Shown: in pieces, positions 8,169 through 35,096 of the stretch | Layout of the letters: every line of letters begins with the position of its first letter | How positions within the stretch are numbered: position 1 is the stretch's first letter | Assembly (NCBI GenBank): GCA_018650465.1 | Contig: JABIFY010000098.1 | Span: forward strand, 1 to 35,096 | Length of the DNA stretch: 35,096 nucleotides | Source of the DNA: Alphaproteobacteria bacterium | GTDB taxonomy: Bacteria; Pseudomonadota; Alphaproteobacteria; UBA2966 | Direction: 5' to 3' | The notes under the pieces: generated by a model | The model's input: the letters and a program-made list of their open reading frames with translations, nothing else | The model's database searches: none | Told to the model about the DNA's origin: nothing | Program-made: the position numbers and the translations under genes

Positions 8169-8672
8169 ATGCCTGACAATGATCCATCCGCCCAAATCCT
8201 GAGCATCGATCTCGTCGATGAAGATGCCACCATAAGTCTGGCGACGCGGCTATGTGGCCAATTACAACAAGGTGACGTTGTGGCCTTGTCCGGTGATCTG
8301 GGTGCGGGCAAGACGGCCTTTGCCCGTGCATTTATTCAGGCCCTGGGCAAAATCCAGGGCACGCCCATTGACGAAGTGCCCAGCCCGACTTTTACCATTG
8401 TGCAAATTTACGACGAACTGGATCCACCTGTCTGGCATGTGGACCTCTATCGTCTTGAAGACCGGGCCGAAGCATTTGAGCTGGGCCTGGAGGAAGCCTT
8501 TGAAGATGGCATAACCCTGATCGAATGGCCGGATCGTCTTGCGGATACCCTGCCGGTTGATCATCTCGCCCTGACGTTTCAGATGGGCCCGACAGAAGGC
8601 ACGCGTACGGCCTTGTTCAGCGGGCACGGTACATGGGCGAAAAAACTAACGTCGCTGGAAATCGGCACATGA
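8169..8672 (+). CDS. tsaE: tRNA threonylcarbamoyladenosine biosynthesis ATPase TsaE
   Basis: Small ATPase that works with TsaB and TsaD to make t6A at position 37 of ANN-decoding tRNAs. The P-loop is GDLGAGKT (42-49 from the chosen start), followed by the family marks PSPTFTIVQIY and HVDLYRLED, then the conserved LIEWPDRL. I chose ATG at 8169 (167 aa). A GTG at 8145 would add eight residues (MSYRYKIY). Neither start has a clear ribosome-binding site, so the start is uncertain. The stop overlaps the next gene's start as ATGA, which suggests translational coupling with amgK. Confidence 0.93.
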   Translation: MPDNDPSAQILSIDLVDEDATISLATRLCGQLQQGDVVALSGDLGAGKTAFARAFIQALGKIQGTPIDEVPSPTFTIVQIYDELDPPVWHVDLYRLEDRAEAFELGLEEAFEDGITLIEWPDRLADTLPVDHLALTFQMGPTEGTRTALFSGHGTWAKKLTSLEIGT

Positions 8673-9673
8673 TCGACTTCACAGATTTTTTCAGCTTGAA
8701 TGATTTGATCCACGTACCTGGTGAAGAGCGAGACGCAGCCCGCGAGGCATTATTGCATGACGCCGGTTGGATGTCGGCAACCTTGAAGCCCCTGGCCGGT
8801 GATGCCTCTGCCCGGTCCTATCAGCGCCTGGCGCAAAATGGCGAGACGGCCGTGTTGATGGATGCGCCGCCGCCACAGGAAGACGTGCGCCCCTTTGTCA
8901 GGATGGCTCAGTGGCTACGCCAACATGGGTTCTCGGCCCCTGAACTTTATGCCGTTGACGACACGGCTGGTTTTATATTGTTGGAAGACCTGGGCGACGA
9001 TCTGTACAGCAGTGTTCTGTCGAGCGGGGCCGATGAAGGATTGCTCTATGATGCGGCGGTAGACGTGCTGGCTGATTATCAGCGCGCCGCGCCACCTGCC
9101 GGGTTTGCACTTTATGATGATGAATTTTTGTTGTTGGAAGTCAGCTACTTTCTCGATTGGTACGTTGCAGAACATCTTAACCAAACCGTGTCAGACGACC
9201 AACGCGCAGATTTCATGGGTTTGTGGCGCGACCTGCTGACGGATATGACGCCCGGCCCAGCGGTACTGGTGCTGCGCGATTACCATGCGGACAATCTGAT
9301 CTGGTTGCCCGACCGCAACGGTTTAGCGAAGGTTGGCTTGCTTGATTTTCAGGGCGCGCTGATCGGATCAGTTGCCTATGACCTCGCTTCTCTGGCGCGA
9401 GATGTACGCCGGGATGTTTCGGATGACATGGTCGAGCGCATGATCAAACGATATTTGTCAGTCACGACGTTGGGTGGTTTTGACGAGGAAAGTTTTCGCA
9501 CGGCCTTTGCCATTGCGGCGGTTCAACGCAATACCAAGATCGCCGGGCTGTTTGTGCGCCTGGCCTTACGCGATGGTAAACGGCAATATCTGGATTACCT
9601 CCCGCGTCTGATCGCCATGTTGCAAAAAGACCTGGCCCATCCTCGCCTGGCTGCGCTTCGGTCGATGGTATAA
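8669..9673 (+). CDS. amgK: Anomeric N-acetylmuramate/N-acetylglucosamine kinase AmgK-like
   Basis: Aminoglycoside-phosphotransferase-fold kinase. In Pseudomonas and relatives AmgK phosphorylates recycled MurNAc at C1, feeding MurU and bypassing de novo UDP-MurNAc synthesis. Visible: PLAGDASARSYQRL (41-54) at the nucleotide-binding lobe, FILLEDLGDD, the catalytic loop LRDYHADN with Asp208, and the metal-binding LLDFQGA with Asp226. The start at 8669 overlaps the tsaE stop (ATGA) and has GGAAA just upstream. A longer frame from 8633 lies inside tsaE and is unlikely. The next gene is the matching uridylyltransferase 3 bp away, which supports the substrate assignment. Function inferred from family and pairing. 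Confidence 0.88.
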   Translation: MIDFTDFFSLNDLIHVPGEERDAAREALLHDAGWMSATLKPLAGDASARSYQRLAQNGETAVLMDAPPPQEDVRPFVRMAQWLRQHGFSAPELYAVDDTAGFILLEDLGDDLYSSVLSSGADEGLLYDAAVDVLADYQRAAPPAGFALYDDEFLLLEVSYFLDWYVAEHLNQTVSDDQRADFMGLWRDLLTDMTPGPAVLVLRDYHADNLIWLPDRNGLAKVGLLDFQGALIGSVAYDLASLARDVRRDVSDDMVERMIKRYLSVTTLGGFDEESFRTAFAIAAVQRNTKIAGLFVRLALRDGKRQYLDYLPRLIAMLQKDLAHPRLAALRSMV

Positions 9674-9676
9674 CTC

Positions 9677-10444
9677 ATGCTTAAACCAAGCCAAAAAATA
9701 TCAAATACGGCCATGGTGCTGGCCGCCGGCAAGGGCTTGCGCATGCGACCGCTCACCAACCGGCGACCCAAACCCCTGGTGGCGGTTGCCGGGCGCAGTC
9801 TGATTGATCGCGCCCTGGATCGGGTGAAGGATGCCGGCATCAGCAAAGTTGTCGTCAACCTGCATTACCGGGGCGAGATGCTGCGCCGTCACCTGGATAA
9901 ACGACAAGGTCTGGATTGCCTCTATTCCGATGAAAGCAAGTCTTTGCTGGAAACCGGCGGTGGTGTCAAAAAGGCCCTGAAAAAACTTGTAGATAGTGGC
10001 CCACGGCCCAAACCGTTCCTTGTGCTGAATAGCGATGCCTTGTGGCTGGATGGCTTTGGCAAGGGGGTTGCCAGTGATAATGCTCTGGCACGTCTGGCCG
10101 CAGCCTGGGATGGCCGACGCATGGATGCCCTGTTGCTGATGCAGCCAACCTCAAAAGCCCTTGGCCACAAAGGTACCGGTGATTATCGCCTGCAACGCGA
10201 TGCTCGCCTGATGCGCGTACCAGGGGGACCGGCGCCTTATGTTTTTACAGGCATCCAGATTTTGCACCCACGCCTTTTTGAACAAAGCCCACGCGGTGCC
10301 TTTTCGCTTGTCCACTTGTATGACAAAGCACAAAAAGCCGGACGCTTGTTCGGCCTGAAACACACCGGCGTCTGGATGGACGTCGGCACGCCCGCAGGTG
10401 TGACCATGGCGGAAGATGAACTAAAAGCATTGGGTCGATTGTGA
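9677..10444 (+). CDS. murU: N-acetylmuramate alpha-1-phosphate uridylyltransferase MurU-like
   Basis: Sugar-1-phosphate nucleotidyltransferase that would convert MurNAc-1-phosphate and UTP to UDP-MurNAc. The N-terminal signature AAGKGLRMRPLT (16-27) followed by RRPKPL is intact. Further in are LVLNSDALWLDG with the metal-binding Asp, and a C-terminal WMDVGTP typical of the group. At 255 residues it is slightly longer than Pseudomonas MurU, and it lacks the C-terminal acyltransferase domain of GlmU. It begins 3 bp after amgK. A mannose-1-phosphate guanylyltransferase-type role cannot be excluded from sequence alone, but the amgK pairing makes MurU most likely. Confidence 0.87.
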   Translation: MLKPSQKISNTAMVLAAGKGLRMRPLTNRRPKPLVAVAGRSLIDRALDRVKDAGISKVVVNLHYRGEMLRRHLDKRQGLDCLYSDESKSLLETGGGVKKALKKLVDSGPRPKPFLVLNSDALWLDGFGKGVASDNALARLAAAWDGRRMDALLLMQPTSKALGHKGTGDYRLQRDARLMRVPGGPAPYVFTGIQILHPRLFEQSPRGAFSLVHLYDKAQKAGRLFGLKHTGVWMDVGTPAGVTMAEDELKALGRL

Positions 10445-13400
10445 TGAATAACATCTTCACCATCGCGCCTTCACGGGCTTTTGTGGATGCCCTGGCAGTG
10501 GGTATATTGGCGCAATATGGGGACGACCCGCTGACCCTGTCGCGTGTCACAGTGTTGCTGCCGACCCGTCGTGCCTGTCGATCTTTACGCGAAGCATTTC
10601 TGCGCACTGGCGATGGCGTGCCCATGTTGCTGCCCGATATCCGCCCCATTGGTGATGTGGAAGAAGATCAAATTCTGCTGACAGCCAACGAAGCCTCAAG
10701 CCTTGAAGGCGGGTTTGATTCAGGCCAGGGCCTGGGCCAGAAAATTCTGGATTTGCCTGAGGCCATTCCCGGTTTGCGCCGCGAATTATTATTGGTGCAG
10801 CTGATCCTGCGCTTCAATCAAAGTCGACAGTCGGAAACCGGGGCGACCGCTGGTAGTCTGGATGCGGCACAGGCGGCGCACCTGGCGCGGGACCTGGCGT
10901 CCTTGATTGATCAGGTGCAAACCGAAGGTCTGGATTTTGCCAATCTTGTGGATATCGTGCCGGAAAGCCTGGCCACACACTGGCAGCTAACGCTGGATTT
11001 TCTCGCCATTGTCACCGACTTCTGGCCAAAAATTCTCGCCGAAGAAGATTTCATTGATCCAGCTGAGCGACGCAATCTTTTGCTGGAACTTCAGGCTGAG
11101 GCCTGGTCAGCTCATCCGCCCGATCATCCGGTTATCGCGGCGGGCTCAACCGGCTCTATTCCGGCCACGGCGCGGCTGTTGAAAACTGTCGCGCGTATGC
11201 CGCAGGGCATGGTTGTCTTGCCTGGTCTTGATCGGGACATGTCGGATGACGCATGGGCCGCAGCAAAAGAAGATGCCACCCACCCGCAATATGGCATGGC
11301 GCAATTGCTGGAAGTTTTTGCCACCCAACGCCCCGATGTGGCGGATTGGGGCAACGGATCAGAACCTGTCGCCAGCGCCCGCAGTCGCTTGCTGAACCAG
11401 GCCCTGTTGCCCGCCGAACAAACGGCACGCTGGCGCGAAGGTGTGCCGGTCACAGCTGACGCCCTGGAAGGCTTGGCCCGGCTGGATTGCAGTGGACCAG
11501 AAGAAGAGGCCCGTGCCATCGCCCTGATGATGCGCGGTGTGCTGGAAGAACCTGAGCGTCGCGCGGCCCTGGTCACACCGGACCGGGCCCTGGCCCGTCG
11601 GGTGGCCGCAGAATTGGCGCGCTGGGATATCGAAATTGATGACAGTGCGGGCCAGCCCCTGGCGCAAACAAGGACCGGTGTATTTTTACGCCTTACCGCG
11701 ACCTTGCTGGTGTCGAACCTGGCCCCGGTTGATTTATTGGCGACCCTGAAACATCCGCTGGCCTGTGGCGGCTTGAGTGCCGGAGACTTCCGCAGCAAGG
11801 TCCGTTTGCTGGAACGCCTGGCCTTGCGCGGCCCGCGCCTGGGCGGTGGCTTTGCAGGTCTGAAAGAAAAATTGGCCAGGAAAGAAAAGCGGGCGCAAAA
11901 GGAAGAAGGTCTGGTTCTGTTACCTTGGCTGGATCAGTTGGCCGAGATGCAGGCGGAATTCGCGGACCTGATTTCAAAGCCCGGCGCCGCCATGAGTGAT
12001 CTGTTGGCGGCTCATATCAAATTTGCCGAGGCGTTGGCTGCCGATGATAAGCAGCCCGGCGTGGCGCGCATATGGGCCGGGGATGATGGCGAAGCGGCTG
12101 CCGGTTTCATTGATGAACTAAACGCTGCCGGGGATGTACTGCCGCATGTGCCGGGCCATTTATATCCGGCCTTGCTGGAAGGTCTGATGGGCGGGCGCAT
12201 GGTGCGACCCCGTTTTGGTCTGCACGGTCGCCTGGCTATTTTGGGTTTGCTGGAAGCCCGATTGCAACATGCGGACCTGACGATCCTTGGCGGACTGAAC
12301 GAAGGCACCTGGCCGCCCATGGTCGACACCGGGCCGTGGTTGTCCAGGCCCATGCGCCGTGATTTTGGTTTGCCTCAGCCGGAACGGCGTATCGGCTTGA
12401 CGGCCCACGATTTTGTTCAGGCCGCAGCTGGCGCTGAAGTGGTTTTGACCCGTTCTGCCAAAGTGGATGGCGCACCAACTGTGCCTGCCCGATGGTTGCT
12501 GCGGTTGCAGGCTTTGCTGGACGGGGCCAAAATTTCCTGGCCCGCAAATGCTGATAGCAATGTAGACTACCTTGTCTGGGCGCAAGCTCTGGATGATCCG
12601 GGCCATGCGCCCCGTCCCGTGTCAGCGCCAGTACCGCGCCCACCCGTCGCGGCGCGCCCGCGTGAATTGGCGGTGACGGACATCGAAAGCTGGATCCGCG
12701 ATCCCTACGCGATTTTTGCCAAAAAGATTTTGCGGCTCAGGGCCCTGGACGACATCGATGCAGATCCGGGCGCGGCGGAACGTGGCACCTTTATTCATGA
12801 TGCCCTGGACAGGTTTGTTCGCGAGACTTCCTGGCCGCCTGACAAAGCTGCCTACGAACGTTTGCTGGCTGTTGGTGCCGAAGAATTTGGTGAAACCCTG
12901 GCGGAACCCGGTGTCTGGGCCTTCTGGTGGCCGCGTTTTCAGCGCGCTGCCCGCTGGTTTGTCGATACCCTCGCCGCCTATGCCGAGGCCGGATACGACC
13001 GGCCTCTGGCGACGGAGGTTACCGGCGAGCTGGAGATGCCCGCCCCCTTCGCGCCGTTCACCCTGAAGGCCACAGCAGATCGCATTGATCGTGATGCCAC
13101 AGGTGATCTGGTTTTGATCGATTACAAAACCGGGGCCGCCCCTACCAGCAAACAGGTACTGGCTGGCTATTCGCCTCAGTTGCCGCTGGAGGGCCTGATT
13201 GCCCAAGCCGGAAAATTTGAAGGTGTGGCGCCAGCTTCTGTTGTCGGCATGGAATACTGGAAAATTTCCGGACGTGATCCGGCGGGTGAAATTGTACCTG
13301 TGAAGGCCGAAGCGCCCGAAGTTCTGGCCGTCGCCCGCAAACGTCTGGATGATCTGGTTGCCGTCTTTGATCAAGCGAGTACGCCTTATCGGTCTGTGCC

Positions 13401-13500
13401 GCGCCCAGGCCCGGATTGGGCCCCGCGTTTTTCCGATTATGAATTATTGGCCCGCCTCGGCGAATGGACACCGCAAGAAGACGAGGAGGCTGGCGAATGA
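10444..13500 (+). CDS. addB: Double-strand break repair protein AddB (alphaproteobacterial type)
   Basis: Subunit of the AddAB helicase-nuclease that resects DNA double-strand ends and loads RecA after Chi recognition. The N-terminal half has the degenerate UvrD-like helicase fold: LLPTRRACRSLREAFL is seen, but no Walker A, so ATPase activity is not expected. The C-terminal PD-(D/E)XK nuclease shows RGTFIHDALDRF (about 778) and LVLIDYKTG (about 887). The iron-sulfur cysteines of Bacillus AddB are absent: the first position reads IRDPYAIF and the C-terminus has no Cys. The ATG at 10444 overlaps the murU stop; a GTG at 10441 is possible. 1018 residues, in the normal range for the alphaproteobacterial form. 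Confidence 0.95.
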   Translation: MNNIFTIAPSRAFVDALAVGILAQYGDDPLTLSRVTVLLPTRRACRSLREAFLRTGDGVPMLLPDIRPIGDVEEDQILLTANEASSLEGGFDSGQGLGQKILDLPEAIPGLRRELLLVQLILRFNQSRQSETGATAGSLDAAQAAHLARDLASLIDQVQTEGLDFANLVDIVPESLATHWQLTLDFLAIVTDFWPKILAEEDFIDPAERRNLLLELQAEAWSAHPPDHPVIAAGSTGSIPATARLLKTVARMPQGMVVLPGLDRDMSDDAWAAAKEDATHPQYGMAQLLEVFATQRPDVADWGNGSEPVASARSRLLNQALLPAEQTARWREGVPVTADALEGLARLDCSGPEEEARAIALMMRGVLEEPERRAALVTPDRALARRVAAELARWDIEIDDSAGQPLAQTRTGVFLRLTATLLVSNLAPVDLLATLKHPLACGGLSAGDFRSKVRLLERLALRGPRLGGGFAGLKEKLARKEKRAQKEEGLVLLPWLDQLAEMQAEFADLISKPGAAMSDLLAAHIKFAEALAADDKQPGVARIWAGDDGEAAAGFIDELNAAGDVLPHVPGHLYPALLEGLMGGRMVRPRFGLHGRLAILGLLEARLQHADLTILGGLNEGTWPPMVDTGPWLSRPMRRDFGLPQPERRIGLTAHDFVQAAAGAEVVLTRSAKVDGAPTVPARWLLRLQALLDGAKISWPANADSNVDYLVWAQALDDPGHAPRPVSAPVPRPPVAARPRELAVTDIESWIRDPYAIFAKKILRLRALDDIDADPGAAERGTFIHDALDRFVRETSWPPDKAAYERLLAVGAEEFGETLAEPGVWAFWWPRFQRAARWFVDTLAAYAEAGYDRPLATEVTGELEMPAPFAPFTLKATADRIDRDATGDLVLIDYKTGAAPTSKQVLAGYSPQLPLEGLIAQAGKFEGVAPASVVGMEYWKISGRDPAGEIVPVKAEAPEVLAVARKRLDDLVAVFDQASTPYRSVPRPGPDWAPRFSDYELLARLGEWTPQEDEEAGE

Positions 13501-16500
13501 CAGAGATTTCAGGTGGGCCCGTTGATCCAACCGTCGCCCAGCGCGTCGCTTCAAACCCGGAAGTCTCATCCTGGGTCAGTGCCTCTGCCGGCACCGGCAA
13601 GACACGGGTTCTGACCGACCGGGTCTTGCGTCTGATGTTATCGGGGGCGGCCCCTGGGAAAATTCTTTGCCTTACGTTCACCAAGGCCGCTGCGGCAGAA
13701 ATGGCGAACCGTTTGAACGATCGCCTGGCAGCCTGGGCCATGATGGATGACGCCGCCCTGTCGACCAGCCTGTTTGATCTTTCAGGCCAAAAACCAGACG
13801 GAGAAATCCGGGCCGTGGCGCGCGGTCTTTTTGCCCGCGTTCTGGATGTGCCGGGCGGCCTCAAGATTCAAACCATCCACGCCTTTTGCCAATCCTTGCT
13901 GGGACGCTTTCCCCTGGAAGCAGGTCTCGCCCCGCACTTCAAAGTCATGGACGAACGCACCGCCGCCGAAATGCAGCGCGAAGCCCGCGATGCCATGTTG
14001 CGTGATGCCCGTCACGACCCGTCCCTCGCCGATGCCCTGATGTTGGTGACAGCGCAAACAAATGAAGATGATTTTGGCAAACTTCTCTCAAGCCTCGCCA
14101 GTGAACGACGACGCCTCGGCCAGCTCTTTTCGCAAAGCGGTGGTCTTGACGGTGCGGTCGACCGGGTGCGCCAGCATCTGGGATTGCAGCCAGCTGATTC
14201 TCATGACGCCATTTTACAAAAAGCGGGCGATAATAATGAATTTGATCTGGCCGCCTTAACCCAGGCTACCGATGCCCTCAAACAAGGATCGAAAACCGAC
14301 GTGGCGCGGGCAGAAATATTGTGTGCCTGGTTGAAAAATTCAGACACACGGGCCGTGAATTTTGAGGATTATTCCACCGTCTTTGTGACACAGAAGCGAC
14401 AATTAAGGGCCAGAATGGCCACAAAAAATACCCAAAAAGCTCTACCTGAAATCGACGATATTATGATTGCCGAAGGCGAACGCATCATCTTTGTGCTGGA
14501 GCATCTGACAGCCATCGCCATCGCCGAAGCCACCGCAGCCCTGCTCGCCCTGGGATCTGCCATGCTGGCGGCCTACGAGCAGATCAAGCGCCAGAATGTG
14601 CGTCTGGATTATGATGATCTGGTGCTCTTGACCCGTGATTTGCTTGCTGCCAATGATGCCGCCGCCTGGGTTTTATACAAGCTTGATGAAGGCCTGGACC
14701 ATGTTCTGGTAGATGAAGCCCAGGATACCAACCCCGACCAGTGGGCGGTGATCGCGGCCCTGGTGTCGGAATTTTTTGTCGGCGACGGTGCCCGCCAAAT
14801 TAACCGCACCATGTTTGCCGTTGGTGATGTCAAACAATCCATATATGGCTTCCAGCGTGCTGATCCGGCGAATTTTGTCACCTGGCAAAGCCGCTTTGGC
14901 GAGACCGTGCGTGAAGTTGACCGGCTCTGGCGACCGGTTGATCTGGCTGTCTCTTTTCGCTCCGCCCAGGCTGTACTGGATGTGGTCGACGATGTGTTTG
15001 GATCAGAAGAAACCCGAAACGGTTTGGTGTTTGGCGAGGGCGAAGTGAAGCACTTTTCCCATCGCAACGGACAGGCAGGCCGGGTCGAGGTTTGGCCCGC
15101 AGTCCAGCCACCCGACCAGGGCGATGACGAAGACGAATGGACCCTGCCGATCAAACAATACCAGGTCCTCAGCGCCAGTCACCGCCTGGCCCTGGATATT
15201 GCGGATCGCATCAAGAACTGGATCGACACTGGTGAAATACTGGAAAGCCGCGGTCGTAGCTTACGCCCCGGCGATGTGATGGTGTTGGTGCAGCGCCGCA
15301 CAGATTTTGTTACTGATCTGGTATCTGCCCTGAAAACACGTGGTGTGGCTGTGGCCGGGACCGACCGCATGGTGCTGGCCGATCAGTTGCCGGTCAAGGA
15401 CCTGATGGCCCTGGCCCGGTTTGTTCTGCTGCCGGAAGACGGTCTAACCTGTGCCGAAGTGCTGAAAGGCCCGTTTTGCAATCTGGATGATGATGATCTT
15501 TTCACCCTTGCCTATGAACGCAAGGGTACGCTGTGGCGGGCCCTGCAAACCAGATCCGGTGAAAACCCGACCTGGTATTCAGCGGCTGAATTCATGGCGA
15601 CACTGCTGGGTCAGGCAGATTTTGTGCCGCCTTATGAATTCTTTGCGCATCTTTTGGGCGCCATGGGCGGGCGGAAATGCCTGCTGGCGCGTTTGGGTAG
15701 TGAAATAAATGACCCGGTAGATGAATTCCTCGCCCTGGCGCAAACTTACGAGCAAAACCGGGTGCCTTCCCTGCAGGGCTTTTTACATTGGCTGGCCGCC
15801 GGTGAAAGTGAAGTAAAACGCGACCCAGAATTGCAGCGCGACGAAGTCCGGGTGATGACCGTGCACGGGGCCAAGGGCTTGCAGGCACCCGTGGTGATAT
15901 TGCCAGACACAATCCGGGTGCCGCGCAAGGACGACCCTTTGATGTGGGCCCAGGCTGAACTTGATAAAACTGAGCTTGATAAAGTTGAACCTGGTAAAAG
16001 CGATCTGCACCTGTTGCTATGGCCAGGCAAGGCCGGGGCCAACGAGCCGATCAGCAAGGATTTGCGGGAAGCTGCCCGCGAGCGCCGCAATCAGGAATAT
16101 CGCCGTTTGTTGTATGTGGCGCTGACGAGGGCCGAGGACCGGTTATATATCGGCGGCTGGGATACAAAGGTCAAACGCCAGGACGGCTGCTGGTATGATC
16201 TTGTTTCGAAAGCGATACAGGTACGCGGTCAAGCTGTTGATGATGGCGAAGATGCAGTCTGGTTCCATGCTGGTACGCAAAGCCAAAAGCCGGATCGTCA
16301 AGAGGATGTTAAACCGGCAGCTAGCCTGCCAGCGCCCCTGCCGGACTGGGCTCGTAAATCTGCACCGCCTGAACCGACGCCGCCGCGCCCCCTTGCCCCC
16401 AGTCGCCCGGAGGGTGAGGAGCCACCCGTGCGCTCACCACTGGCGGGCGAAGATATGAGCCGCTTCCAGCGTGGCCGCTTGATCCACCGTTTGTTGCAGA

Positions 16501-16958
16501 CACTGCCGGATTTACCTGAAGACACACGGGCTGCAGCGGCCGGGCGGTTTTTGGCAAACCCGGCGCACCGTCTTGAGCCTGAAGCCCGCGACTTGATCGC
16601 CGCAGAAGCACTGAATATTCTGCAACACCCTGAATTTGCAGCTATATTTGGACCCAACAGTCGCGCCGAAGTTTCCATTGCAGGTGTTTTGGGCGAAAAT
16701 GTCATTTCAGGCCAGGTCGATCGCTTGCTGGTGGAAGAAGATCAAATTCTGGTGATCGACTATAAAACCAACCGCCCGCCGCCCACCTCGGAAGCCACTG
16801 TTTCGCCGGTATATTTACGCCAGATGGCCGTCTATCGTGCGGCTTTGCGACAGATTTATCCCGGTCGTACTGTGCGCTGTGGCTTGCTGTGGACCGATGT
16901 CGGACGGCTGATGGCTTTGTCAGATTCAGCCCTTGATGAATATACGCCGGATACCTAA
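13497..16958 (+). CDS. addA: Double-strand break repair helicase AddA (alphaproteobacterial type)
   Basis: Motor and nuclease subunit of AddAB: a 3'-5' superfamily 1A helicase with a C-terminal RecB-family nuclease. Walker A is ASAGTGKT (about 29-36), then LTFTKAAAAEM. The Walker B-like LVDEAQDTN is near 404, followed by VGDVKQSIYGFQRA. VMTVHGAKGLQAPVV and YVALTRAEDRLY are motifs V and VI. The nuclease has GRLIHRLL (about 992) and ILVIDYKTN (about 1085). The ATG at 13497 overlaps the addB stop as ATGA and has GGAGG about 10 nt upstream. A frame beginning at 13464 lies inside addB and is not the start. 1153 residues. A small pentapeptide repeat insert lies near residue 821 (separate entry). 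Confidence 0.96.
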   Translation: MTEISGGPVDPTVAQRVASNPEVSSWVSASAGTGKTRVLTDRVLRLMLSGAAPGKILCLTFTKAAAAEMANRLNDRLAAWAMMDDAALSTSLFDLSGQKPDGEIRAVARGLFARVLDVPGGLKIQTIHAFCQSLLGRFPLEAGLAPHFKVMDERTAAEMQREARDAMLRDARHDPSLADALMLVTAQTNEDDFGKLLSSLASERRRLGQLFSQSGGLDGAVDRVRQHLGLQPADSHDAILQKAGDNNEFDLAALTQATDALKQGSKTDVARAEILCAWLKNSDTRAVNFEDYSTVFVTQKRQLRARMATKNTQKALPEIDDIMIAEGERIIFVLEHLTAIAIAEATAALLALGSAMLAAYEQIKRQNVRLDYDDLVLLTRDLLAANDAAAWVLYKLDEGLDHVLVDEAQDTNPDQWAVIAALVSEFFVGDGARQINRTMFAVGDVKQSIYGFQRADPANFVTWQSRFGETVREVDRLWRPVDLAVSFRSAQAVLDVVDDVFGSEETRNGLVFGEGEVKHFSHRNGQAGRVEVWPAVQPPDQGDDEDEWTLPIKQYQVLSASHRLALDIADRIKNWIDTGEILESRGRSLRPGDVMVLVQRRTDFVTDLVSALKTRGVAVAGTDRMVLADQLPVKDLMALARFVLLPEDGLTCAEVLKGPFCNLDDDDLFTLAYERKGTLWRALQTRSGENPTWYSAAEFMATLLGQADFVPPYEFFAHLLGAMGGRKCLLARLGSEINDPVDEFLALAQTYEQNRVPSLQGFLHWLAAGESEVKRDPELQRDEVRVMTVHGAKGLQAPVVILPDTIRVPRKDDPLMWAQAELDKTELDKVEPGKSDLHLLLWPGKAGANEPISKDLREAARERRNQEYRRLLYVALTRAEDRLYIGGWDTKVKRQDGCWYDLVSKAIQVRGQAVDDGEDAVWFHAGTQSQKPDRQEDVKPAASLPAPLPDWARKSAPPEPTPPRPLAPSRPEGEEPPVRSPLAGEDMSRFQRGRLIHRLLQTLPDLPEDTRAAAAGRFLANPAHRLEPEARDLIAAEALNILQHPEFAAIFGPNSRAEVSIAGVLGENVISGQVDRLLVEEDQILVIDYKTNRPPPTSEATVSPVYLRQMAVYRAALRQIYPGRTVRCGLLWTDVGRLMALSDSALDEYTPDT
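15957..16001 (+). repeat. Three 15-bp tandem units inside addA
   Basis: Three in-frame 15-bp units encode ELDKT, ELDKV and EPGKS at AddA residues 821-835. They lie between helicase motifs V (VMTVHGAKGLQ) and VI (YVALTRAEDRLY). Units 1 and 2 differ at two or three bases and unit 3 is more diverged. This looks like local slippage expansion in a surface loop, in frame and apparently tolerated. Confidence 0.75.
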
Positions 16959-31491: not shown

Positions 31492-31567
<76 letters not shown>

Positions 31568-31675: not shown

Positions 31676-32560
31676 TCAGGCCTTGTTCCCGTCGCTAAAC
31701 GATTGGCTGATGCTCTGCATACCGTTCCTGACGACGCCAACAAGGGCAAACCCATCTACATTGGCGATGGCCAGGGCGGTGGCTCCGAGACGCTGACGGA
31801 TGTCGATGGCCCGCAATTCTGCATTTTGCAAGGTAATTTCCGGGTCGATCAATTCTGCAACACCGTTGGGGATATGGCCGGTCACTGTTTTGGCCGTATC
31901 CAGAGCGCTGCTGACTTTGTCAGCTGTTGTCTGCAGGGTCTTGAGGCGGCTGTCAAATGTTGTCAGGGCAGTGGCCAACAAAGTAGCACTGGCGGTTGCT
32001 TCACTCGTCAGGGTGACACTAACGTGGCTAATCCCCAGGCCTTGCGCGGATAAATCCTCCGACGCAATTCTGATTTTGTCGCCTTGGGTATCCTTGATCA
32101 CAAAGTTGGGCGGATTTTCATCGATAAAGTTCAGGCCGTTGACTTCGCCGAAGGAAACCTGTCCGGCAAGACGTTCGCGCAAGGTTTCGAAGCGGGTTAT
32201 CAGGTCGTCCCTGGCTTCCTGATCGATGTTGGTGGCTTTCGCCTGAAGTGCTATGGCAGCCATTTCAACAATCGTATCGCGTAAGCCTTCGGCGGCCGTC
32301 AGGCCAGCTTGCAAAGAAGTATCGGTGCCAAACAACACGGTTCGTCGGGCGACCAGACCGGCATCCTTGCCCAAAGCGATTTCAACTTGATCGAGCGTCG
32401 TCTTGGTTGTTTCATTTTCGGAAACCGCAAATCGCAGATCGTTTTCAGCGCGCAGGCGGTCGCTCTCCACGATCCCACTGCGGGCGTTGAGTGTCTGAAA
32501 GCCGATCATAGCGGCATCGCTGATCAAACTGACCAATTTCAGGCTCCGAATTTGTTTCAC
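31676..32560 (-). CDS. Orphan, diverged flagellin-like protein
   Basis: I align this by eye to short alphaproteobacterial flagellins such as Caulobacter FljK. The middle AGLTAAEGLRDTIVEMAAIA...FETLRERL...VNGLNFID matches the D1 helix region. LSAQGLGI matches the short central segment. The C-terminus ELIDPEITLQNAELRAIDIR followed by QRLGATALAIAN matches flagellin D0/D1. The N-terminus (MIGFQTLNARSGIVESDRL) is far more diverged and lacks the usual RISTG and KDNAA motifs; the end QSISQSFSDGNKA also replaces the usual LSLF. The start is GTG at 32560, the first possible after an in-frame TGA, with no clear ribosome-binding site. 294 residues. No flagellar gene is nearby. It may be a specialised filament or cap subunit, a secreted paralogue, or a decaying copy; the frame is open. 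Confidence 0.72.
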   Translation of the reverse strand: MKQIRSLKLVSLISDAAMIGFQTLNARSGIVESDRLRAENDLRFAVSENETTKTTLDQVEIALGKDAGLVARRTVLFGTDTSLQAGLTAAEGLRDTIVEMAAIALQAKATNIDQEARDDLITRFETLRERLAGQVSFGEVNGLNFIDENPPNFVIKDTQGDKIRIASEDLSAQGLGISHVSVTLTSEATASATLLATALTTFDSRLKTLQTTADKVSSALDTAKTVTGHIPNGVAELIDPEITLQNAELRAIDIRQRLGATALAIANVDGFALVGVVRNGMQSISQSFSDGNKA

Positions 32561-34560: not shown

Positions 34561-34852
34561 GTTTGGGGGAATCCTTGGTTGCGAACAAAAAATGCTGCTC
34601 TTCTTTTGTCTGCCAGCGGCAGGAAAATCAAGCGATTCACCGCCAGCAGGCCAAAAATACTTCACTGTCGTGCGGTCTTGATTCTGTTCGCAAAGTGACT
34701 AAGTATCAGGACAGCGGTGCCTTTGGGGCCGCAAGGCTGCCAGAAATGCGAAGATCAGTGCCCGATCGGGGCTGGCGTTCGAAAATCGGTGGTTTAATTT
34801 ATTTGGCTGGCTTGTACAGCTGTTTCGTCGCACTCGCGGTTGTTAATTTTAT
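34561..34852. other. Divergent intergenic region before the small heat-shock gene
   Basis: No gene was recognised between the dehydrogenase start and the hsp20 leader. A perfect 10-bp palindrome CCCGATCGGG lies at 34761-34770. I find no convincing sigma-32 promoter of the alphaproteobacterial form; a CTTG at 34677 has only a poor -10 partner. Confidence 0.45.
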
Positions 34853-34876
34853 CGCCCTTGCTCAAAGGAGGAGGCG
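34853..34876 (+). promoter_or_regulatory. ROSE-like RNA thermometer hairpin over the hsp20 ribosome-binding site
   Basis: The leader can fold so that UUGCU (34858-34862... paired from 34853) lies opposite the ribosome-binding site AGGAGGAGG. Pairs: 53-76, 54-75, 55-74, 56-73, bulged A at 72, 57-71, U-G 58-70, 59-69, a G-G mismatch 60-68, 61-67, 62-66, loop CAA (all plus 34800). A UUGCU facing AGGA with a central G-G is the hallmark of ROSE thermometers in front of alphaproteobacterial small heat-shock genes. The start codon is 6 nt further on. Confidence 0.68.
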
Positions 34877-34882
34877 CACAAG

Positions 34883-35096
34883 ATGTCCCGGGTTTCCCTG
34901 TTTAACAGTCCCCTGCTATTAGGCTTCGAACAGATCGAGCGCACGCTTGATCGCGTCGCCAAATCCGGCGGAGAGGGCTATCCCCCTTATAATATTGAGC
35001 AAATTGGCGAAAGCGGCATTCGAATCAGCGTCGCGGTTGCCGGCTTTTCTCTTGATGATTTGCAGGTCACGGTCGAAGAAAATCAATTGGTCATTC
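34883..35096 (+). CDS. Small heat-shock protein, Hsp20/IbpA family (5' part only)
   Basis: ATP-independent holdase chaperone that binds unfolding proteins under heat stress. The first 71 codons are present before the right edge. The N-terminus SLFNSPLLLGFEQIERTLDRV and the following YPPYNIEQIGESGIRISVAVAGFSLDDLQVTVEENQLVI match the IbpA/HspA-type start of the alpha-crystallin domain. The ATG has a very strong AAAGGAGGAGG upstream which lies in the hairpin described separately. That a small heat-shock gene follows such a hairpin supports both calls. The domain's conserved C-terminal half and the IxI motif lie outside the window. Confidence 0.9.
   Translation, partial: MSRVSLFNSPLLLGFEQIERTLDRVAKSGGEGYPPYNIEQIGESGIRISVAVAGFSLDDLQVTVEENQLVI

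Follow-up and report, generated by a model that had tools for sequence, protein, structure and literature searches.

A probable ROSE-like RNA thermometer with a genus-specific repeat insertion upstream of an alphaproteobacterial hsp20 gene

The window, which is the whole 35,096-nt stretch of contig JABIFY010000098.1 analysed here, ends in the start of an hsp20 gene, and we consider it likely that the leader of this gene is a ROSE-like RNA thermometer which falls below the Rfam ROSE cut-offs and carries a genus-specific repeat insertion. In small heat-shock genes of Alphaproteobacteria a thermometer is to be expected. As we envisage it, a sigma-32-type promoter would give rise to a leader of ~170 nt with two stable domains, hairpins I and II, followed by hairpin III, in which CUUGCUC is paired with GGAGGAGG and the register decides between a G-G mismatch and a bulged G. 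At low temperature the ribosome-binding site would be hidden, and on heating the imperfect hairpin III would open and Hsp20 would be made, such that the leader itself would sense temperature. Between hairpins II and III the leader has been lengthened in this genus by a 24-nt unit with a second anti-SD-like strand, a unit that is tandemly amplified in the sister genome and at the second copy of the gene in this genome. The coordinates of the features are collected in Table 1.

Table 1. Features of the hsp20 leader in the window (positions of the 35,096-nt stretch)
Feature	Position	Strand	Description
Sigma-32-like promoter	34677..34706	+	CTTGAT 34677-34682, 16-nt spacer, CTAAGTAT 34699-34706; consensus match only
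Hairpin I	34714..34732	+	GCGGU(G)CC..GGGGCCGC, bulged G; MFE from 34712 at 20, 37 and 42 °C
Hairpin II	34755..34775	+	UCAGU(G)CC..GGGGCUGG, bulged G; MFE, R1 match, sister-genome counterpart
Insert region, hairpin II to anti-SD strand	34776..34856	+	81 nt, ~70 nt beyond relatives
24-nt repeat unit	34833..34856	+	CTCGCGGTTGTTAATTTTATCGCC; wrap-around alignment to C111 unit
Hairpin III (SD hairpin)	34853..34878	+	anti-SD CUUGCUC 34857-34863 opposite GGAGGAGG 34867-34874; thermosensing by analogy
hsp20 gene start	34883..35095	+	71 codons up to contig end, ATG at 34883

The gene is cut at codon 71 (35096), and no contig matching its remainder was found in the genome. The fragment in the window matches PF00011 at E = 0.0041, under the Pfam cut-off, and its assignment to Hsp20 comes from a full-length second copy on contig C111 of the same genome, an Hsp20/alpha-crystallin protein by Pfam (PF00011, E = 4.5e-17) which is 90% identical to the fragment across 71 residues. 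At the nucleotide level the two copies agree in 191 of 213 bases, and the sister genome (G001) agrees with the window copy in 180 and with the C111 copy in 177 of the 213. Tandem paralogy, or the presence of strain variants within one assembly, may account for the two copies. A third hsp20 of this genome, IbpA-like (L003, G000:C24), has upstream of 48204 a leader, TTTGCTTCAAAGGAG, similar to the classical ROSE core, in which Rfam gives no ROSE at E ≤ 1.

From 170 related hsp20 loci in the genome collection, the best 80 were taken as relatives of the gene; as controls we used 299 other open reading frames, called mechanically from the same loci, which have an SD and a length of 120 codons or more. 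Of the 80 hsp20 relatives, 76 have the motif T[TC]GCT no more than 45 nt before the start vs. 11 of the 299 control frames, and the fuller arrangement CT[TC]GCT..GGAG precedes the start in 68/80 vs. 0/299. The energy of SD sequestration, by contrast, does not set the leader apart. When SD and coding start were kept fixed and the rest was dinucleotide-shuffled (n = 300 for each of three starts), 34867-34873 was hidden at least equally well at 30 °C in 118 shuffles from start 34845, 142 from 34820 and 108 from 34777; further, 34780-34900 is less stable than most shuffles (182/200 fold at least as well, z = +1.23). Since shuffled leaders hide the SD equally well, sequestration energy was rejected as proof of a thermometer: the motif is conserved beyond chance, whereas the sequestration energy alone is not beyond chance. 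The shuffles also speak for a reading in which there is no regulation at all and a purine-rich SD pairs by chance with the adjacent pyrimidine-rich strand, but this reading is already contradicted by the conservation of the motif and of hairpins I and II, and we hold it to be very unlikely.

The conservation extends to the leader as a whole. In relatives the element consists of a sigma-32-like promoter, two GC-rich hairpins and then the SD hairpin, and an alignment of 31 leaders (A1), none of them from the window's genus, gave the consensus GGCGGUGCC..GGGCCGCC for hairpin I, GGGUGCC..GGGCCC for hairpin II and CUCGCUC..GAGGAG for hairpin III, each with one bulged G. Under this three-hairpin structure, which was placed by hand from conserved columns of A1 so that its pair counts lean towards it, 91.3% of the cells are standard pairs, falling to 40-56% when the partners are slid, and 8 of 21 pairs are changed on both sides (shuffled mean 3.7; 3/500 shuffles as high). 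The covariation score is 0.175 vs. 0.131 in shuffled alignments, a value reached by 0/500 shuffles. Two-sided changes fall on 5/8 pairs of hairpin I, 2/7 of hairpin II and 1/6 of hairpin III, in which the SD strand is nearly invariant, and RNAalifold on A1 returned the SD hairpin plus one questionable helix joining I and II, and nothing else. The covariation that the preliminary description had looked to as a check is a property of the whole leader, with the SD hairpin contributing a single pair. The same description had named a lack of covariation combined with an open SD as grounds for abandoning a thermometer; because the leader covaries as a whole, that combination is not what we find.

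A covariance model built from A1 (R1) was applied to 66 of the 77 loci remaining after A1, leaving out L037 of the sister genome and 10 near-duplicates (mostly Thalassospira). It matched 44 of the 66 at E ≤ 0.01 and missed 22, and by coordinates all 44 matches end at the hsp20 start codon or at most 2 nt from its end. None of the 66 loci duplicates a leader within R1, and L019 and L072 among the 44 are one identical leader. Moreover, when R1 was run with strict filters on 190 genomes of the class, 37 were matched, the window's own genome not being included at E ≤ 0.01; all 30 loci fetched from these 37 genomes lie directly upstream of an hsp20 of this type, two of them being rows of A1.

In the window, R1 matches 34699-34791, which holds hairpins I and II, with 16.7 bits (E = 0.017 in 43 kb), and it matches the end of contig C108 of G001, the only other genome of the genus compared, with E = 0.016. 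Hairpin I of the window lies within this match and is homologous to hairpin I of A1; the stem of hairpin II departs in both of its strands from that of the relatives, GGGU(G)CC..GGGCCC, yet it is still paired. Because 81 nt divide it from hairpin II, the SD hairpin is matched only separately and weakly (8.0 bits), and R1 does not bridge the insert. The putative promoter is arranged in the same way in the sister genome (CTTGAT-16-CTAAATAT), and CTTGA is found within 230 nt of the start in 67 of 79 relatives (one of the 80 has too short upstream DNA), a few being clearly misplaced, e.g. in L083 and L114. A sigma-70 promoter was sought for the window leader and none was found. If the sigma-32-like promoter is the one used, the transcript would be expected to begin near 34711-34714 and to include this stretch as leader. 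The preliminary description, which saw no strong upstream ROSE hairpins and supposed a minimal form, has to be revised on both points: hairpins I and II are present by MFE and by R1, and together with the sigma-32-like promoter they stand shifted upstream by the insert. Hairpin II and the anti-SD strand are 8-20 nt apart in A1 (31 leaders, median 10), and the window leader is therefore a lengthened rather than a minimal ROSE.

The stretch directly before the ATG (34853-34882) reads CGCCCTTGCTCAAAGGAGGAGGCGCACAAG, and several folds are predicted for it, depending on the start chosen. In the MFE from start 34845 at 20 °C (last two digits of 348xx), C53-G76, G54-C75, C55-G74 and C56-G73 are followed by a bulged A72, then by C57-G71, U58-G70, U59-A69, a G60-G68 mismatch, C61-G67 and U62-A66, closing on the loop CAA. 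This local fold sets CUUGCUC, a strand of the UUGCU type, opposite GGAGGAGG, and it contains the 3-nt loop, the G-G mismatch and the bulge that had been described before; alternative registers, as suspected at that time, are likewise possible. When the transcript is started at 34777 or 34820, a different fold is the MFE at all three temperatures (20, 37 and 42 °C): 34829-34835 takes up the 3' half of the SD, and CCUU 34856-34859 is joined to AAGG. With start 34712, this repeat-strand fold is the MFE at 20 °C and gives way to the local hairpin at 37 and 42 °C. The SD reads GGAGGAGG, and therefore a second register of the local strand, shifted by three bases, is possible. This third arrangement (C63-G68, U62-A69, C61-G70, bulged G60, U59-G71, U58-A72, C57-G73) sets CUU-G-CUC against GAGGAG and is the register conserved in relatives.

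From start 34712, the local strand takes 0.52 of the SD pairing at 20 °C and 0.67 at 42 °C. In the relatives (the 71 of the 80 with both motifs and enough DNA), it takes a median of 0.66 at 30 °C, with 47/71 above 0.5. The modelled probability of 34867-34872 being fully open is at most 1e-4 at 37 °C (four starts tried), and the folding model changes only gradually from 20 to 50 °C, with no sharp opening. In the cell, the leader would presumably fold along similar lines.

According to PMC3669281 and PMC4166951, the main hallmark of ROSE-like thermometers, which have two to four stem-loops, is a U(U/C)GCU strand that faces the SD in the 3' hairpin; PMC4166951 also cites a 2005 survey with more than 40 ROSE candidates. 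In the window leader, CUUGCUC and GGAGGAGG are imperfectly paired (G-G mismatch or bulged G) and the motif is conserved, and hairpins I and II, present by MFE and R1 homology (E = 0.017), bring the number of stem-loops into that range. The Rfam ROSE models, which the preliminary description proposed as a check, did not match the window leader, and relaxing the threshold to E ≤ 10 brought up no ROSE in 34600-35096. With gathering scores of 45 bits for RF00435 (ROSE) and 43 bits for RF02523 (ROSE_3), neither model exceeded its cut-off in any of 61 genomes, the window's own included. Of 33 sub-threshold RF00435 matches, 23 lie beside an hsp20 of another type and none before an hsp20 of this type (coordinates compared by eye). 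For RF02523, the four weak matches in the window's own genome are all outside the window, and two leaders of this type are matched below threshold, in G009 (29.4 bits, E = 4.4e-4) and in G030 (25.9 bits, E = 0.003), the best and third-best RF02523 matches of the 61 genomes in a search that also weakly matches 12/14 control genomes. We read these two matches as a sign that the leaders may be akin to ROSE_3. The reading of the RF02523 match at L023 (E = 0.36) as chance was dropped; it lies on the leader of the L023 hsp20, on the strand of that gene, and lends weak support. A FourU thermometer was also rejected, the four uridines opposite the SD not being found and the main partner strands being CUUGCUC and CGCACUC. 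Since it stays below the Rfam cut-offs, the leader is filed as ROSE-like and as a member of neither RF00435 nor RF02523. What stands of the original proposal of a ROSE-like thermometer before a small heat-shock gene is the strand opposite the SD, the Hsp20 identity and the conserved leader; the minimal form does not.

With the ROSE of rhizobia and gammaproteobacteria (Bradyrhizobium hspA ROSE1, E. coli ibpA; RF00435, RF02523) the leader shares its place in the 5' UTR of a small heat-shock gene and a series of hairpins of which the final one masks the SD with U(U/C)GCU, as described in PMC3669281, and the hairpins and UUGCUC..GGAGGA of the Rfam ROSE consensus look similar. It differs in falling under the Rfam cut-offs and in an additional ~70 nt that include a repeat unit, and the relatives differ in their core, CUC-G-CUC/GAGGAG with a bulged G. 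The ROSE-like element of Pseudomonas ibpA also has a U(U/C)GCU anti-SD strand, and its SD hairpin is sufficient for thermoregulation, as PMC3669281 also reports; its UTR, however, has ~60 nt and two hairpins, whereas the window has three hairpins in what would be a leader of ~170 nt. Cumulatively, the relatives appear to represent a widely conserved ROSE-like subtype (CUCGCUC..GAGGAG plus two bulged-G hairpins), which is below the cut-offs in 61/61 genomes and would therefore be left unannotated by the Rfam route, and which R1 recovers.

The insert is related to a 24-nt tandem repeat. Five exact units, CTCGCAGTTGTTGGTTTTATCGCT, run up to the contig end on the minus strand of G000:C111:79661-79806 (L002), upstream of the second hsp20 copy of the window's genome. 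In wrap-around alignment, 34776-34866 scores 40 against this unit (shuffled maximum 25; 0/200) and 25 against the unit of G001 (2/200 shuffles); the portion 34776-34836 alone is not significant against either (38/200 and 66/200 shuffles), and the window thus holds a single recognisable unit, 34833-34856. The units of G001 are found at two contig ends, that of C108 (L125), where they follow the promoter and hairpins I and II, and that of C4 (L004, L037), where they precede the SD and hsp20. The G001 array is therefore in the insert position, if these ends belong together, and shares this position with a spacer. None of the other leaders scanned, same-family loci included, had a 24-nt array. Among L002-L032, it is present in L002 and L004 of this genus alone, other repeats being at other places, and among the 80 leaders the repeats overlapping the last 45 nt are the L037 array and weak two-copy repeats in L059, L060 and L084, the nearest to an array elsewhere being that of L059, a weak 2.2-copy repeat of 11 nt (score 34) that touches the anti-SD strand.

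These arrays invite the idea of a multi-register thermometer tunable by copy number, in which the anti-SD strands of the units compete for the SD, and either basal expression or the temperature of switching depends on how long the array is. The second anti-SD-like strand of the window (CGCACUC, 34829-34835) can pair with GAGGCG at 34871-34876; from start 34712, the share of SD pairing taken by the unit's CGCxCUC falls from 0.21 at 20 °C to 0.05 at 42 °C, and for two of the four starts the MFE at 20, 37 and 42 °C has the unit strand as partner of the SD. Moreover, the units of the two genomes are unlike in sequence and have the same length of 24 nt. Precedents exist in the meningococcus. PMC4999090 describes two 6-nt anti-RBS copies in fHbp, with thermoregulation reduced by changing either copy and nearly abolished by changing both, and PMC4166951 describes an 8-nt deletion upstream of css (capsule) which raises expression. 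In fHbp, though, the duplicated strands fall within the coding sequence of an unrelated gene, whereas the window copy is upstream and the sister genome and the second copy have an upstream tandem array, and css, in which a short change of leader length likewise alters expression, differs in that 8 nt are concerned and in not being a heat-shock gene. Those 8 nt are one copy of a tandem repeat, and the css thermometer is not known to have a ROSE core.

Against tuning by copy number, arrays occur in two genomes only, and the modelled SD-opening energy goes up with the first unit, by 1.25 (C111) and 0.8 (G001) kcal/mol at 37 °C and by 1.9 and 1.1 kcal/mol at 45 °C, respectively, but hardly with more (7.29-7.53 for G001 and 7.45-7.57 for C111 with 2-10 units at 37 °C); at 20 °C, the C111 array even lowers it. 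Array copy number as a strong tuner is thus not supported by the folding model. We regard a copy-number-tunable thermometer as unlikely, and hold it equally doubtful that an anti-SD strand captured in a 24-nt repeat lets array length, through slippage, retune heat-shock translation within the genus. Under the preferred reading of a ROSE-like thermometer, the insert is probably a mostly neutral spacer that adds an alternative SD partner. An anti-SD tandem repeat within the switch in one genus would nevertheless offer a natural test of repeat-number tuning. In the literature searched, with most subscription papers outside its scope, no description of the ROSE-like subtype or of the array was found.

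Two further roles were weighed for the array. Its units could be extra binding sites for Hsp20, with self-repression on its own mRNA as the main control: E. coli IbpA represses its own translation via the 5' UTR, and conservation of self-repression in alphaproteobacterial IbpA is suggested by the authors (PMC10474464). Such control could operate together with a thermometer, and as the main control we think it highly improbable. Alternatively, the array could encode a hydrophobic leader peptide (LAVVGFIA/LAFIGLFA repeats) overlapping the hsp20 start, given that 24 nt equal 8 codons and that one frame of the window is open through the unit and beyond the hsp20 start; in G001, however, this frame has a stop just upstream of the array and no ATG, GTG or TTG after that stop in the known part, and 4/5 differences between the two array units alter the residue. 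We consider a leader peptide extremely unlikely, and retain the ROSE-like thermometer.

Two observations concern the window outside the leader. On the minus strand, 31676-32560 holds an open reading frame of 294 aa, flagellin-like by eye and with no Pfam match at E ≤ 0.001, which adjoins a tRNA at 31492-31564. Further, genes for an APH-like kinase, a nucleotidyl transferase, a PD-(D/E)XK nuclease and a UvrD-helicase/nuclease lie in a row at 8633-16958, and presumably represent amgK-murU-addB-addA.
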